Origin: a virus
IMG/VR virus record: IMGVR_UViG_3300020196_000044
Span: 1 to 56,295 of that record
Strand: one strand, 5' to 3'
DNA length: 56,295 nt
How positions within the stretch are numbered: the stretch's first letter is position 1; each line of letters starts with the position of its first letter. The translations under genes and the position numbers were made by a program. Positions 8,867 through 15,071 of the stretch are shown here, in pieces. A model generated the notes under the pieces. That model was given only the letters and a program-made list of their open reading frames with translations, was not told where the DNA came from and did not search any database.

Positions 8867-9538
8867 ATGAAAATTAGTACAATACTATCAAATGTTGTAG
8901 GTAATTATGGATTAGCCACATCTAATAAGTATCATGTTTCATTTACTAATATGAACGCAGCACTTGGTACTGCATTGGGGTTACAGAATATATCAGATCC
9001 ATCTTTATTTGAACTTGAATCTAGTGCTAACAAAGCAGCAACAAAACTTAGTTACCTTTGTGATGAATGTAACATACCAGGATTTAGTTTTGCAACTGGA
9101 GACGTGAAAGGATTACAACCTGGAATCAATATTCGTAATGCACATACTAAAATATTTAATGAATTGAATTTAACTTTCTTATTAGATTATTCACATACAA
9201 CGTATAATGTATTTCAAAGATGGTCTGATTTTATTTTTAATAAGCAAGGTATTCCAGGGTATGATATTAAATCATACTCTTTGATGAGATACTATGATGA
9301 TTACTGTGCAGATGTTGTAATACAAAAGTTAGAACCAAGTAGAAGGGATATAAATGTTCAATCATTCTTTGATCCTCTTGGTAATGCTACATCTAGGAAT
9401 ACTCATGTGGTGATGAATCAATTGGTAGCACATAAAGTATTTCCATATAGCATGAATAATATTTCATTTTCTAATGGACCAAATCAACCAGTAAGAGTTC
9501 AAGTATCCTTTTATTTTGAGTACCTAGATAAAGTATAA
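8867..9538 (+). CDS. Tail-tube-fold protein
   Basis: Encodes 223 aa. The layout is that of the T4 tail-tube family: NKYHVSFTN near the start, LCDECNIPGFSFATGDVKGL, FNELNLTFLLDYSHTTYNVF with a following QRWSDFIFN, and a beta-rich C-terminus ending VRVQVSFYFEYLDKV. T4 has three such proteins: gp19 (tube, 163 aa), gp48 and gp54 (tube cap and initiator). With gp48 already present nearby, this could be the gp54-like initiator or a tube paralogue; I cannot separate them. Its place right before the chaperone and tape-measure genes is where phages usually keep a tube gene. Confidence 0.75.
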   Translation: MKISTILSNVVGNYGLATSNKYHVSFTNMNAALGTALGLQNISDPSLFELESSANKAATKLSYLCDECNIPGFSFATGDVKGLQPGINIRNAHTKIFNELNLTFLLDYSHTTYNVFQRWSDFIFNKQGIPGYDIKSYSLMRYYDDYCADVVIQKLEPSRRDINVQSFFDPLGNATSRNTHVVMNQLVAHKVFPYSMNNISFSNGPNQPVRVQVSFYFEYLDKV

Positions 9539-9562: not shown

Positions 9563-10270
9563 ATGGCATTGCCAACTTTGAATAACCCTACTTATGAATT
9601 GGTTATTCCTTCAACTAAAAAGAAAATTAAGTACCGTCCATTCTTAGTTAAAGAAGAGAAGATTCTTCTCTTAGCACTTGAATCTGAAGATGAAGTGCAG
9701 ATTGCAAATTCAATGAAAGATATTATTTCTGCTTGTGTGCAGACAAAGGGAATTGATATTGATTTGCTTGCAACCTTTGATATTGAATATCTATTTTTAA
9801 ACATTAGAGGTAAATCTGTTGGGGAAAAAATTGAATTGCTTTTAAAATGTCCAGATGATAATGAAACTGAAGTTTTAGTGTCAATTAACATTGATGATAT
9901 TCAAGTTTATTTCCCAGAAGGACATGAGAATCAAATTAAAATCTCTGATGATTTGTGGGTTGAAATGAAATATCCTAATCTAGATTCATTTGCTCTCTTA
10001 GAGGATGCACAGAATCCAGATAACACATTTAAATTAGTTGCAAAATCAATTGCTAAAATTTATAATGAAGATGATGTTTGGGATAGTTCTACGACTACTG
10101 AAGATGAATTTATTTCATTTGTTGAATCAATGAACAATAAGCAATTCTCAAATATTCAAAAGTTTTTTGAATCAATGCCTTCATTGAAGCATACAATTAA
10201 GATTAAAAATCCTGTAACTAAAGTACAAAGTGATTATACTATTGAGGGTCTATCAAATTTTTTCGGATAG
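9563..10270 (+). CDS. gp26: gp26-like baseplate hub / tail assembly chaperone
   Basis: Encodes 235 aa. The opening (MALPTLNNPTYELVIPSTKK, then YRPFLVKEEKILLLALES) is the recognisable start of the T4 gp26 baseplate-hub family (T4_baseplate). IVKECVQ-like ISACVQTKGIDIDLLATFDI and FLNIRGKSVGE follow. T4 gp26 is 208 aa and is described as a hub assembly factor. Here it lies between a tube-fold gene and the tape measure, the position of tail assembly chaperone G in other phages. The last codons (TCA AAT TTT TTC GGA TAG) contain a slippery heptamer that could shift some ribosomes into the open -1 frame downstream. Confidence 0.82.
   Translation: MALPTLNNPTYELVIPSTKKKIKYRPFLVKEEKILLLALESEDEVQIANSMKDIISACVQTKGIDIDLLATFDIEYLFLNIRGKSVGEKIELLLKCPDDNETEVLVSINIDDIQVYFPEGHENQIKISDDLWVEMKYPNLDSFALLEDAQNPDNTFKLVAKSIAKIYNEDDVWDSSTTTEDEFISFVESMNNKQFSNIQKFFESMPSLKHTIKIKNPVTKVQSDYTIEGLSNFFG
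10255..10261 (+). promoter_or_regulatory. Candidate -1 ribosomal frameshift site
   Basis: A AAT TTT in the gp26 frame fits the X XXY YYZ slippery pattern and is followed, seven bases later, by the gp26 stop. Downstream, 10280-10299 is a perfect 20-base palindrome, ATAATTCTCTAGAGAATTAT, which can fold as an 8-bp hairpin. Its 18-base distance is longer than usual for a stimulator. Confidence 0.55.
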
Positions 10271-10455
10271 CCCTCTTCCATAATTCTCTAGAGAATTATT
10301 ATAGAACTAACTTTGGTTTGATGCAACATCACAAATATAGTTTAACTGAACTAGATAATATGATGCCTTGGGAAAGAGAAATCTATGTTGCTATGCTATT
10401 AAAATTCTTGGAAGAGGAAAAGGCAAGGATAGAAAAACAAAACTCTAGATCTTAA
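10261..10455 (+). CDS. -1 frame extension of gp26 (chaperone T part), or short separate gene
   Basis: The frame read after slippage is open for 64 codons: FRIALFHNSLENYYRTNFGL, then MQHHKYSLTELDNMMPWERE and IYVAMLLKFLEEEKARI. This looks like real protein and resembles the T half of tail assembly chaperones, where a His-rich turn precedes a (M/P)-x-WE-x-E helix. There is no good start before ATG 10321, which would give only 44 aa and cut the conserved-looking part, and no ribosome binding site is evident there. A frameshift fusion with gp26 (about 297 aa in total) therefore explains the region best. The stop overlaps the next ATG (TAATG). In T4 the neighbouring gene is gp51, so this could be its counterpart. 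Confidence 0.65.
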   Translation, partial: FRIALFHNSLENYYRTNFGLMQHHKYSLTELDNMMPWEREIYVAMLLKFLEEEKARIEKQNSRS

Positions 10456-12719
10456 TGGAATCATCACAACTAGGATTACATGACTACAATGACGCCATAC
10501 TATCTGTGTATGGCGCAAATCCTGTTGTGCAGATGGCAGCATCTCCATCGGAACAAGTTGATGTTGAAGAACCAACTGAACAACTTCCTACTAAAAAAGA
10601 AAAGAGAATAAAAAAAGGCACACTATTTACTGAAACTTTAAAGTTAAAGAAGGCTGCATTACTTAATTTATCTTTAGCAAAAAGAATATTTGATTATGAA
10701 CAATCCCGTCTTAGAGAATTAACCACTGAGATTGGTGAGTTACAACCATCAAGAACTAGAGCAGAATCTTATTCTGACAAAGAGAAAGAAGAGAAAGAAG
10801 AGAAATCAGGAATTGGTGGACTATTCTCTAGATTCTTTAGGAATTTATTTTCTAAACTTGGTAAAGTATTATCTTTAAAGTTCAGAAGAAGTATCGGCAG
10901 AAAGAATCGATTAAGATTAAAGAAGTTACAGAGGACATATAGGAAATCAAAAATTGTATCAAAGAGATTTGCTAGAAATTTAACTAAACCATTTAGGCAA
11001 ACATCAAGATTCTTTAAGTCACTTCCAAAAAAAGCATGGAAAGGAATTAAGGGACTTGCAAGCACAGCAAATCAAGTTAGAAAAGTTATTGGTGGGTCCA
11101 TTCAAATGGCAAAGGGACCTAAAGTATCAACGGCACCCAAACCCTCTGGATTAAAAATGCCACAAATGCCATCTGGAATAAGTAAAGGTGCATCTAATTT
11201 GATGAAAGGTGCAAAAAACTTTACTAGATCTGGTCCACTTGCTGCTTTATTTGCTGGATTTGAATTCGGAGGAAGGAAAGGAGCAGGACAAACAGACGCT
11301 CAGGCAGGCATAGGAACCGCTGCAAGCGTCGCTGGTGGTATTGCTGGAGCGAAGGGAGGCGCCGCTGCTGGTGCCGCTCTGGGGGCAACTATAGGACTTG
11401 CTTTTGGTGGTATTGGTGCCGCTCCTGGCGCTGCAATTGGTGCTATCATTGGTGGAATTGGTGGAGGTTTTGCAGGATCGTTTGGTGCAAGTAAACTTGC
11501 TGATGTTGCCACTGGTGTAGATGAGAAGCAGAAATATGCAGAAGGTGGTGTGGTAACTGGACCTCAACTTGCATTGATAGGAGAGGGGGGAGAGCCAGAA
11601 TTTGTGGTTCCTCAAAGTAAACTTGGTTATTTCTTATCGGGTAAAACTGGCATTGGGTTGGTAAATGCTGGAGCAAAAGTTATATTCAGTGGCGTAAGAA
11701 AGTTTGCAGATTCTATTGGACTTGATCCAAAAATACTCAGTTCAATTCCAGAACTTTCTTTAGAAAAAACATTACCCTCTAGTGATATAACTGTACCAGT
11801 AACAACAGACATAAGACAGACGCCAAAATTTAATTTGGGTAAAAATATATTTGATAAAATTATAGAGGGATTTAAAAATCTGTTAAGTGATTTGCCTAAT
11901 TTATTACCCGCTCCACTCAAAGCATTAATAAGTGGTGTACAGGGATTGACAAATGGAGTACAAAATTTTATTGGAGATTTAACTGGTGGATCTGCTGCTG
12001 ATTTGTCAGGTACAGGTGTTGTTAGAGAAGTTGATTTAAAGGCAAATACTCATAAAGACGTTGGACTTACAACTAAATTTGGGTATAGTGCTTTTCATGG
12101 TAGACATCATAATGGTGTTGATGTAGGTACATCTGGAAAGAGTGGTTTTCTTGTGGGGTTCAAAAAAACTGGTAAAGTTACTTTCTCTGGACCATCTGCT
12201 GGATATGGAAATCTTGTTATCATTAAAGATAATTCTGGAACTGAATACTATTTTGCCCATTTAAAAAATATAAATCCAGATTTATCGGTTGGGAAACCAT
12301 ACAATGGAGAAAGCATTGGTGAAATAGGAAACACTGGTCATAGTTCTGGAATTCATTTACACTTTGAGAAGAGACCAAAGGGATCTTCTGGGGTAGATCC
12401 AATGCCTGACGTTGGATTGCTTGATATAGGTAAAAAGAAACAAAAGATACCATCAAAAGTTTCTGATCCTGGTAGAACAGTTGAATTACCAACTAATCTT
12501 AATGCCCCTGCAAATCCATTGACTGTTTCTCCTGCTCTAAATATGATGGGAGGTAGTATAACGCCAACTCCTGAGGATCCATTTGCGATTGGTGGTACAA
12601 ATACTATTTTAACTAATGGTGGTGGAGTACAATATATTCCTTTTCCTATTCCAATAAAATCGAATCCAAATAAACCAAGTTCAATATACTCAACTTGGGG
12701 AACTACTCCTAATAAGTAA
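10455..12719 (+). CDS. Tape-measure-like protein with C-terminal M23 peptidase domain
   Basis: Encodes 754 aa. The N-terminal 210 residues are highly basic and helical (coiled-coil-like, with many Lys/Arg). Residues about 285-350 are a Gly/Ala-rich hydrophobic stretch, and YAEGGVVTGPQLALIGEGGE near 365-385 is a motif frequent in tape measures. From about 530 there is an M23 (LytM-like) zinc endopeptidase: HHNGVD (His551/552, Asp556) and IHLHFE (His634, His636) supply the usual metal and catalytic residues. It probably sets tail length or hub structure (gp29-like) and cuts peptide cross-links of the cell wall during DNA entry. It starts on the stop of the frameshifted chaperone. Confidence 0.8.
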   Translation: MESSQLGLHDYNDAILSVYGANPVVQMAASPSEQVDVEEPTEQLPTKKEKRIKKGTLFTETLKLKKAALLNLSLAKRIFDYEQSRLRELTTEIGELQPSRTRAESYSDKEKEEKEEKSGIGGLFSRFFRNLFSKLGKVLSLKFRRSIGRKNRLRLKKLQRTYRKSKIVSKRFARNLTKPFRQTSRFFKSLPKKAWKGIKGLASTANQVRKVIGGSIQMAKGPKVSTAPKPSGLKMPQMPSGISKGASNLMKGAKNFTRSGPLAALFAGFEFGGRKGAGQTDAQAGIGTAASVAGGIAGAKGGAAAGAALGATIGLAFGGIGAAPGAAIGAIIGGIGGGFAGSFGASKLADVATGVDEKQKYAEGGVVTGPQLALIGEGGEPEFVVPQSKLGYFLSGKTGIGLVNAGAKVIFSGVRKFADSIGLDPKILSSIPELSLEKTLPSSDITVPVTTDIRQTPKFNLGKNIFDKIIEGFKNLLSDLPNLLPAPLKALISGVQGLTNGVQNFIGDLTGGSAADLSGTGVVREVDLKANTHKDVGLTTKFGYSAFHGRHHNGVDVGTSGKSGFLVGFKKTGKVTFSGPSAGYGNLVIIKDNSGTEYYFAHLKNINPDLSVGKPYNGESIGEIGNTGHSSGIHLHFEKRPKGSSGVDPMPDVGLLDIGKKKQKIPSKVSDPGRTVELPTNLNAPANPLTVSPALNMMGGSITPTPEDPFAIGGTNTILTNGGGVQYIPFPIPIKSNPNKPSSIYSTWGTTPNK

Positions 12720-12725
12720 TAAGAA

Positions 12726-15071
12726 ATGGCAAATATTCCAAGTAAAGCAATAAAAAAATTTAAGAAGGATATTCATAGAGAGATTGCTGCTGGGATTCTT
12801 ATTGCTTATGGTTTGTTTCCACGTACCAATGAAGGTATCGCTAAAGCACAGCGTCTTATTGCAGGCAGAGAAACTTGGTTAGCACCTTCAGAACTACCAA
12901 ATTATTATGATAATATTGAAAGTGATTTGATGATAGGCAGGGAAACTGCTGGCATCGTTAACATCAGAATGATATTGAAAGAATTTTATGGACTTGATAA
13001 TAAACCAAGTGCAATTACAGTACCAAAATTAGATACAGGTAAAACAACTGTTTATAAACCAGAAGATAAATTTGTAGATGATATTACTGAACAACTTGAT
13101 AACAAGTTAGAAGAAACTTCCGACAATATTATGGATGCTGTTGATGCTTTAATTGAAAAGCAGAAAAAAGATTTTGAAGATTACAAAAAGAAACAAGAGG
13201 AAGAAAGGCAGCAAAAGAAAGCAGGAGAAGAACAGTATCCAACTCCAATTGGACCAGATCCAATGCAAGGTCCAGTGGAACCTCCTGTCCAAGGACCAAA
13301 AGAACCCCCAAAGAAAACAGTTGCTCCAGAAAAAGATGAGGATTGGCAATCTGAAGTACCAGATCAATTAGGTACAAAATTAGATGAACTCATTGAACAA
13401 GTAAAGAATGATCCTCTACCTAAACCTGCTGGAGATAATAGAAAAAGAACCAAAGGGAAGACAATTAAGAGAAGTAAACCACGATACAGTGAGATGCATG
13501 TGGGGTCTCCTCTTGCTGAGGTTATGGATAATGTTATTGAAACAAAGAATGCTTTATTAGATCTCTATAAAATTACAAAGAAACATTTTGAATTTAAAAA
13601 AGGCATTGATAAAACATTAACTCAAAGATTATCTGCTAAAAAGAGAGAACAACAGTTAGAAAAACCATCATCTCCTGATGGAGATACTAAAATAAAAGAT
13701 AAGGATAAAAAAGAAAGTTCACTTCAAAAATCATTAAAGAATGCATTAAGTCAGGGTCTTTTTACAGCAGCTATTGGAACGTTAACGCCAGTATTGTTAT
13801 CTTTGATGGCACCATTTTTAGGAAATCAAAATGATATTGAACCTGAACCTGAACCAGATATTAAACCAGATAAATCACCTTCAGATCAATCACAATTAGA
13901 ACCTCCACCAGCACCAGATCTTCCTCCACCAGAAACAGAATCTCCAAAATCTCCTAAACCATTAGTTGATGTTCCACCAGCACCAGTTTTGCCACCACCA
14001 ATAACTATTCAACCTGCTGCTGAAGGTAGAAAATTTGATAAAAAGAAATCTGAACCACTTAAACCTTTAAATATACCTGTGTCAAAAACTGGAAAGAATG
14101 AAGAACTATCAAAAGTAATTAAACCATTGATTGCTGCTGTACAACTTCCAGTTAAAGTTGGAGCGGGAGCAATGCTTTCTTTTGCACATTCAATTGTAAA
14201 TCCTTTTGCTATGTTTATGCCTCCTTTTGTAAAGGGATTTATTAATAATATTTTTAAAACAATATCAGATTCTGCTGGATTAACTGGTGTTAATTTTCAA
14301 CTATCTGGTGATAGTTTTGTTGATACATTAAAGAAAGCATTAGGAGGTGCATTTGGTGGCGGCGGCGGGGGCGGCGGCGGTGGCGGCGGCGGTGGCGGCG
14401 GAGGTGGAGGCGGCGCTGGAGGCGGCGATGGTGGTGGTGGTGGATTATCAACATCAGCTAGTAGTGCCGTTAAAGATCCAAATGTTAAAGCGTTTTTAGA
14501 TGTTCTTGCAAAACCAGAATCTGGAGGGAGATATAATGTTTCTGTTGGTGGAAAACTATTTTCAGATATGTCTAAGCATCCTGAAATGTATAATTCAGAG
14601 TTAAATTCTGATGCAGCAGGAAGATATCAATTTCTAAGCACGACATATAAACCAATTGCTAAAAGGTTAGGGTTGAAAGATTTTAGTCCTAGAAGTCAAG
14701 ACCTTGCTGCTGTTCAATATTTAAAAGATCTTGGAGTTCTTGATGAAATTCAAAGTGGAGATCCTAAGAAACTTGCAGATGTTAAACGTAGATTACAAGG
14801 AAGTACTTGGACTGGATTACAAAAATATACCGATGATTCTTACTTGAAAACGTTTAAAGATAGACAAAAATTTTATAATGATACTGCAAGACCAACAACA
14901 GCAGGAACTCCACCAATAACAGGAACACCCAAACAGCAACTTGAAGCACAGATAAACCAAATATTAGGCATACCTCCACAACCACCACAGGTGCCAACGA
15001 TGCCAAATTTATTTGAGGGAAGTTCTAGATCACCAACTGCTAATTTATTTACGTTACAACCAACTCCATAG
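12726..15071 (+). CDS. Tail protein with C-terminal lambda-R-like muramidase
   Basis: Encodes 781 aa. Residues 1-110 are a folded N-terminal part (FKKDIHREIAAGILIAYGLF). Long charged and Pro-rich linkers follow (EEERQQKKAGEEQYPTPIGP; PEPEPDIKPDKSPSDQSQLE), then a hydrophobic segment and a 30-codon glycine tract. Residues about 588-720 match the lambda endolysin R family (GH104 lytic transglycosylase): FLDVLAKPESGGRYNVSVGG with likely catalytic Glu598, AAGRYQFLSTTYKPIAKRLG, and LKDFSPRSQDLAAVQYLKDLG. It should cut glycan strands during infection, replacing the lysozyme domain carried by T4 gp5. A second tape-measure or hub role for the N-terminal part is inferred from position. Confidence 0.85.
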   Translation: MANIPSKAIKKFKKDIHREIAAGILIAYGLFPRTNEGIAKAQRLIAGRETWLAPSELPNYYDNIESDLMIGRETAGIVNIRMILKEFYGLDNKPSAITVPKLDTGKTTVYKPEDKFVDDITEQLDNKLEETSDNIMDAVDALIEKQKKDFEDYKKKQEEERQQKKAGEEQYPTPIGPDPMQGPVEPPVQGPKEPPKKTVAPEKDEDWQSEVPDQLGTKLDELIEQVKNDPLPKPAGDNRKRTKGKTIKRSKPRYSEMHVGSPLAEVMDNVIETKNALLDLYKITKKHFEFKKGIDKTLTQRLSAKKREQQLEKPSSPDGDTKIKDKDKKESSLQKSLKNALSQGLFTAAIGTLTPVLLSLMAPFLGNQNDIEPEPEPDIKPDKSPSDQSQLEPPPAPDLPPPETESPKSPKPLVDVPPAPVLPPPITIQPAAEGRKFDKKKSEPLKPLNIPVSKTGKNEELSKVIKPLIAAVQLPVKVGAGAMLSFAHSIVNPFAMFMPPFVKGFINNIFKTISDSAGLTGVNFQLSGDSFVDTLKKALGGAFGGGGGGGGGGGGGGGGGGGGAGGGDGGGGGLSTSASSAVKDPNVKAFLDVLAKPESGGRYNVSVGGKLFSDMSKHPEMYNSELNSDAAGRYQFLSTTYKPIAKRLGLKDFSPRSQDLAAVQYLKDLGVLDEIQSGDPKKLADVKRRLQGSTWTGLQKYTDDSYLKTFKDRQKFYNDTARPTTAGTPPITGTPKQQLEAQINQILGIPPQPPQVPTMPNLFEGSSRSPTANLFTLQPTP
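14355..14444 (+). repeat. GGC-rich polyglycine tract
   Basis: Thirty codons encode 20 Gly, Ala, 3 Gly, Asp, 5 Gly. Codons are mostly GGC/GGT, producing a very GC-rich island in an AT-rich genome. It separates the N-terminal part from the muramidase domain and is repeat-like enough to vary in length. Confidence 0.9.

Follow-up and report, generated by a model that had tools for sequence, protein, structure and literature searches.

Our analysis indicates that gp26 of this T4-like cyanophage and an out-of-frame extension at its 3' end very probably constitute a tail assembly chaperone pair which would be expressed by -1 programmed ribosomal frameshifting, similar to gpG and gpGT of phage lambda. 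The DNA that was analysed, hereafter referred to as the window, is the complete stretch of 56,295 nucleotides of the IMG/VR virus record IMGVR_UViG_3300020196_000044, and the features discussed here are compiled in Table 1. A -1 frameshift joining gp26 to the extension had already been proposed in the first-pass annotation of this DNA, and the proposal is supported by the relatives of the phage, in which both a slippery heptamer and the open -1 frame are retained. Slippage itself, its efficiency and the chaperone function are what we infer from the conservation of the locus, the selection acting upon it, the homology of its products and the fold similarity of gp26. According to the proposed mechanism, most ribosomes would stop at the TAG at position 10268 and release the short form of 235 aa, while a minority would slip back by one base with tRNA-Phe in both the P and the A site on U UUU UUC (10258-10264) and read 63 more codons, so that a fused product about 297 aa in length would result (...LSNFF-RIALFHNSLENYY...). 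A Shine-Dalgarno (SD)-like GAGG located 10 nt 5' of the heptamer would probably promote the slip, and in many relatives a hairpin immediately 3' of it would probably do so as well. Coating of the tape measure protein would be the task of the short form, and the extension would serve to recruit subunits of the tail tube.

Table 1. Positions of gp26, the putative recoding site and the neighbouring genes in the window.
Feature	Position	Strand	Basis or remark
Tail-tube-fold protein 5' of gp26 (lambda V position)	8867..9538	+	PHROG 45, PF23849
gp26, 235 aa, putative short tail assembly chaperone form (TAC-N, lambda gpG-like action)	9563..10270	+	PF12322, PHROG 150, AlphaFold model
SD-like GAGGG, candidate upstream stimulator	10244..10248	+	GAGG 10 nt before the heptamer; codon bias, spacing
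Putative slippery heptamer T TTT TTC (Phe-Phe, tandem -1 slip)	10258..10264	+	present in 187/187 loci
-1 frame extension (TAC-C; annotated elsewhere as gp51)	10258..10455	+	PHROG 634, PHROG 150, pN/pS
gp26 0-frame stop TAG	10268..10270	+	1-3 codons past the heptamer in all relatives
Perfect 20-nt palindrome, potential 8-bp RNA hairpin	10280..10299	+	weak, poorly conserved in the clade
First possible starts of a free gp51, TTG 10318 and ATG 10321	10318..10323	+	would omit about 18-19 conserved residues
Tape-measure-like protein with Peptidase_M23 domain	10455..12719	+	PHROG 167, PF01551

The product of gp26 matches the T4_baseplate family PF12322 with an E-value of 6.7e-68 and a score of 229 bits, which is above the curated cut-off of 24.5, and it also matches PHROG 150. 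The protein encoded upstream of gp26 matches the tail tube family PHROG 45 (E = 4e-30) and PF23849, Phage_TTP_2 (E = 2e-18), while the downstream product matches the tail length tape measure family PHROG 167 (E = 1.5e-18), mostly across the region of an M23 peptidase domain (PF01551, E = 2e-15). The start of this downstream gene overlaps the stop of the -1 extension in the sequence TAATG. Thus, with a PHROG 45 gene on one side and a gene with a tape measure match on the other, the V-G-GT-H order that had been recognized in the first-pass annotation, i.e. tail tube, G, T and tape measure, holds, with the tape-measure call resting in part on the M23 domain. The open reading frame that adjoins the tape-measure-like gene (12726-15071) encodes an extended stretch of poly-glycine and, at its C-terminus, a domain similar to endolysins or tail lysozymes (PHROG 90 and 17230).

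The last codons of gp26 read TCA AAT TTT TTC GGA TAG (10253-10270). The heptamer A AAT TTT, which had originally been regarded as the slippery sequence, is indeed present at 10255-10261, but it is conserved in only 3 of 112 relatives and was rejected as the slip site; what is kept instead is T TTT TTC, which overlaps it and lies three bases further downstream. For this comparison, 187 gp26 ends were assembled from IMG/VR contigs, cyanophages, the Vibrio phages KVP40 and EniLVp02, the Sinorhizobium phage phiM12 and the Caulobacter phage Cr30, and an identity cut of 90% left 112 non-redundant loci. An in-frame NNT TTT TTC occurs in 184 of the 187 loci and NNT TTT TTT in the other three, the heptamer being present in all 112 non-redundant loci; in every one of the 187 it is located one to three codons from the gp26 stop, and it occurs in phages of the Kyanoviridae, Vibrio Straboviridae and phages of Sinorhizobium and Caulobacter. 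Given the encoded amino acids and the codon usage of gp26, this conservation in the 112 loci corresponds to a log10 P of about -42, a value that ignores shared descent. In the AT-rich window the bare motif TTTTTTC is not enriched (24 copies versus 33 expected). Five in-frame NNT TTT TTY sites are found in window reading frames of at least 100 aa, and that of gp26 is the only one which is near its stop and the only one whose -1 frame stays open over a longer distance (65 codons versus 2-10). It is the conservation in relatives that lifts the site beyond chance, the heptamer alone being insufficient.

Since the two frames encode one domain pair that is fused in T4, it might be argued that a frameshift mutation or a sequencing error has broken a once continuous gene; however, this explanation is refuted by the recurrence of the break at one and the same heptamer in 187 loci, which come from many datasets and hosts. 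It is also extremely unlikely that RNA polymerase rather than the ribosome changes the frame by slipping on the T run. A homopolymer of six T, extended to seven in two lineages, might suggest such transcriptional slippage, but 110 of 112 loci keep a run of exactly six T followed by C, which is short for polymerase slippage, and the fixed codon phase, the SD-like element and the downstream hairpin are features of ribosomal frameshifting. With respect to variation at the site, the gp26 genes of S-N03-like cyanophages (loci L087 and L098-L109) end in GAT TTT TTC TAG or TAA, no codon intervening between the slip site and the stop. In several of these loci, a -1 frame stop immediately precedes the slip site, so that the open frame of the extension begins precisely with the heptamer. 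The most divergent signal was found in phiM12 (locus L083, 1798-1816), in which the slip site is T TTT TTT and is followed by two more sense codons before the stop.

From position 10258 the -1 frame of the window is open for 65 codons (FFRIALFHNSLENYYRTNFGLMQHHKYSLTELDNMMPWERE...NSRS) up to the TAA at 10453-10455, and the encoded peptide matches PHROG 634 (gp51, baseplate hub assembly catalyst; E = 9e-30) and also PHROG 150 (positions 231-278). The earlier impression of a long open frame that looks like real protein is corroborated by this match and by the pattern of substitutions. In the ungapped group of 106 loci, pN/pS is 0.34 in the -1 frame versus about 1.0-1.3 in the other frames. In sixteen of the 112 loci, including that of this phage, extension codons 1-11 do not include an ATG, the first one being located near codon 20-21; across codons 5-19 of these sixteen loci the -1 frame contains no stops and has a pN/pS of 0.36 (bootstrap 0.23-0.49), compared to 1.04 and 1.23 in the other frames. 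Hence, selection at the protein level already acts on the -1 frame of these loci in codons that precede any ATG. Of the 112 loci, 94 encode Arg as the first -1 residue past the two Phe, whereas the 0-frame residue at this position varies (A, G, V, stop and others). No start codon in the -1 frame was found upstream of the heptamer in any of the 112 non-redundant loci, and in 13 of them neither ATG, GTG nor TTG occurs before extension residue 19. That the extension of the window has no good start of its own was likewise confirmed, as its first potential starts are TTG 10318 and ATG 10321 and no Shine-Dalgarno-like sequence was detected before them.

These observations bear on the question of whether gp51 might be a separate small protein for which ribosomes re-initiate at an ATG close to the end of gp26, with no frameshift product being formed. 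The gene is annotated in this way in P-SSM2, KVP40, Cr30 and S-PM2, an ATG is located at or just after the gp26 stop in many relatives, and cyanophage and vibriophage gp51 has been described as lacking its first ~200 residues, the short cyanophage form being treated as a reduced gene (Sullivan et al. 2010, PMC3037559). We nevertheless consider this explanation very unlikely, as in the window and in 15 other lineages no ATG stands ahead of the conserved residues, as the -1 frame encodes a conserved Arg ahead of the ATG, and as T4 holds both parts in one reading frame; moreover, it would leave unexplained both the heptamer and the codon bias towards GAGG, located 24-30 nt ahead of the ATGs. Under the frameshift reading, gp51 would have looked ~200 residues short because gp26 supplies the missing part through the frameshift. 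In 96 of the 112 relatives, an ATG does occur within the first 11 extension codons alongside the invariant heptamer, and a separate gp51 could therefore also be made there. Thus, it might be speculated that the fusion is produced everywhere and that a free extension arises in addition by re-initiation where an ATG is nearby, which would not be the main route in the window. We regard such a dual output as unlikely, since the Met position may be kept merely as protein or hairpin sequence, and since there is no known need for the free form, without which 16 lineages manage.

Frameshifting of gp26 may further be promoted by elements on either side of the heptamer. A conserved Glu-Gly pair occupies the fifth and fourth codons before the slip; the ratio of GAG to GAA at this Glu is 77:26 as compared to 847:1789 elsewhere in gp26 (p = 5e-18), and GGG and GGA are enriched at the pair. 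Accordingly, 77 loci carry GAGG or GGAGG 10 nt ahead of the heptamer, and most others have a similarly placed AAGG or AGGA, with a nearly fixed spacing of 9-10 nt between the SD-like element and the heptamer. This spacing is right for a stimulator of the dnaX type. As the element resides 24-30 nt before the ATGs that are annotated as gp51 starts, it is too distant from them to serve in initiation. On the 3' side, folding just downstream of the heptamer compared to synonymous shuffles yielded a mean z of -2.7 for 112 loci and of -3.1 for a half sample, figures which overstate the certainty because related sequences are not independent, versus 0 to -1.0 for segments away from the heptamer. A downstream hairpin is thus a strong feature of the family, starting at about +5 to +8 nt after the heptamer in most relatives, and within one hairpin class GCTCA/TGAGT is exchanged for GCACA/TGTGT, a two-sided Watson-Crick swap by which pairing is kept. 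As the stems vary from lineage to lineage, no usable common structure emerged when whole groups were folded to a consensus.

In the window itself, the palindrome at 10280-10299 (ATAATTCTCTAGAGAATTAT), which the first-pass annotation had put forward as a potential hairpin, is exact and would form an AT-rich 8-bp stem 15 nt past the heptamer. Its perfect symmetry stands, but as a stimulator it is a weak candidate: the hairpin folds no better than dinucleotide shuffles (z = -0.46), and the palindrome is broken or absent in some sister lineages. A role as the main stimulator is therefore unsupported, and neither a terminator nor a promoter was found at the site. It might be hypothesized, with the arguments for and against in rough balance, that T4-like phages share a three-part recoding signal consisting of an SD-like GAGG at -10, the invariant U UUU UUC and a hairpin about 5-8 nt downstream which is rebuilt with a different sequence in each lineage, and that the clade of the window keeps the first two parts with the hairpin weakened or moved. 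If this is true, the levels of the fusion should differ between clades. In the literature searched, in which the work of Vladimirov and coworkers from 2022 was covered via citing papers, no SD-like element, lineage-rebuilt hairpin or deep invariance of T TTT TTC was found.

In T4, the genes for gp26 and gp51 are located on opposite strands. PF12322 matches both proteins (T4 gp26 1-206 and T4 gp51 1-201, the latter with E = 4e-52), and PHROG 634 matches residues 147-246 of T4 gp51 (E = 1e-23). A profile of the frameshift fusions aligns with residues 16-246 of T4 gp51 in one stretch which runs through the junction (FF-R...LENYY region; positions 24-284 of 298 of the profile), compared to E-values of 0.5 or worse for decoy T4 proteins. 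The end of T4 gene 26, GAG TTC TTT GAG TTA CTA TAA, has lost the heptamer. Judged by these alignments, T4 gp51 is collinear with the whole fusion, that is, with gp26 of the window plus its extension, and T4 gp26 is its short paralogue without the heptamer. A gene pair would thus have replaced frameshifting in T4, with the duplicated fused copy standing in for recoding. In contrast to the window, T4 has two genes on opposite strands, no heptamer and a long form that is a permanent in-frame copy; in other Kyanoviridae, as in the window, the extension adjoins gp26 in a different frame. The earlier statement that genes 26 and 51 of T4 are separate is correct insofar as there are two genes, but T4 gp51 already represents a fused copy of full length. 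Two paralogues are also present in Aeromonas phage 31 and RB43. Thus, the Straboviridae comprise a KVP40 type, which would have kept the frameshift, and a T4 type with a short and a fused gene. The gp26 of Aeromonas phage 31 (locus L092, 1837-2451) has a divergent C-terminus that ends in GALGVK and lacks the FF motif, as if freed from the constraint of frameshifting.

The likeness to lambda gpG/gpGT consists in a short chaperone with a -1 extension, a slippery heptamer just before the stop and a position flanked by the genes for the tail tube and the tape measure; unlike in lambda, the signal here is T TTT TTC with an SD-like element, and the protein families differ by sequence. In a recoding review from 2016, G-T frameshifting was described as conserved in long-tailed phages 'except T4' (PMC5009743). 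According to two citing papers (PMC10885494, PMC12846349), Vladimirov, Gautam & Davidson (2022, Virology 566:9-15) dealt with the tail chaperone genes of T4-like phages, i.e. the same genes as here, with their poly-T frameshift signals and with the short-plus-fused gene pair as the alternative. The cyanophage gp26/gp51 frameshift is thus well supported and, as far as these citing papers convey, of a kind already described for T4-like phages in 2022. The first-pass suggestion that a fused form would be a new link between the two systems has to be abandoned, given that T4 gp51 is already fused and that, by the same accounts, frameshifted chaperones of T4-like phages are in the literature. A frameshift in the chaperone genes of Vandenendeviridae and Andersonviridae (GTTTTT; PMC12846349) similarly involves a T-rich -1 site and a conserved -1 frame formerly annotated as a separate gene or as intergenic, but concerns other phage families and another motif than in the window.

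Structural modeling of gp26 using AlphaFold resulted in a model with a mean pLDDT of 87. A Foldseek search of the PDB with this model gave no significant match, and a profile search of PDB sequences with gp26 revealed no relative. A second structural aligner, applied to gp26 residues 1-96, placed 3fgx, the HK97 tail assembly chaperone 2ob9 and YqbN (3klu), a member of the XkdN-like phage tail chaperones, on top with Z-scores of 7.9, 7.8 and 7.2, all below the caution line of Z 8, followed by the phage-satellite protein 5ir0 at Z 4.9 and by unrelated rows at 2.8 or less. With its top scores below 8, this ranking agrees with a chaperone role, short of proof, and the predicted resemblance of the N-terminal domain of gp26 to 2ob9 may add to the likeness to systems of the lambda type. 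The frameshift reading, in turn, supports gp26 and gp51 as tail assembly chaperones and not as hub components. In hundreds of records, gp51 is listed as a separate gene or omitted. The alignment with 5ir0, a protein of a PICI-like element of Vibrio cholerae, covers residues 6-92 of the gp26 model, and 5ir0 could be a satellite copy or a mimic of a tail chaperone.
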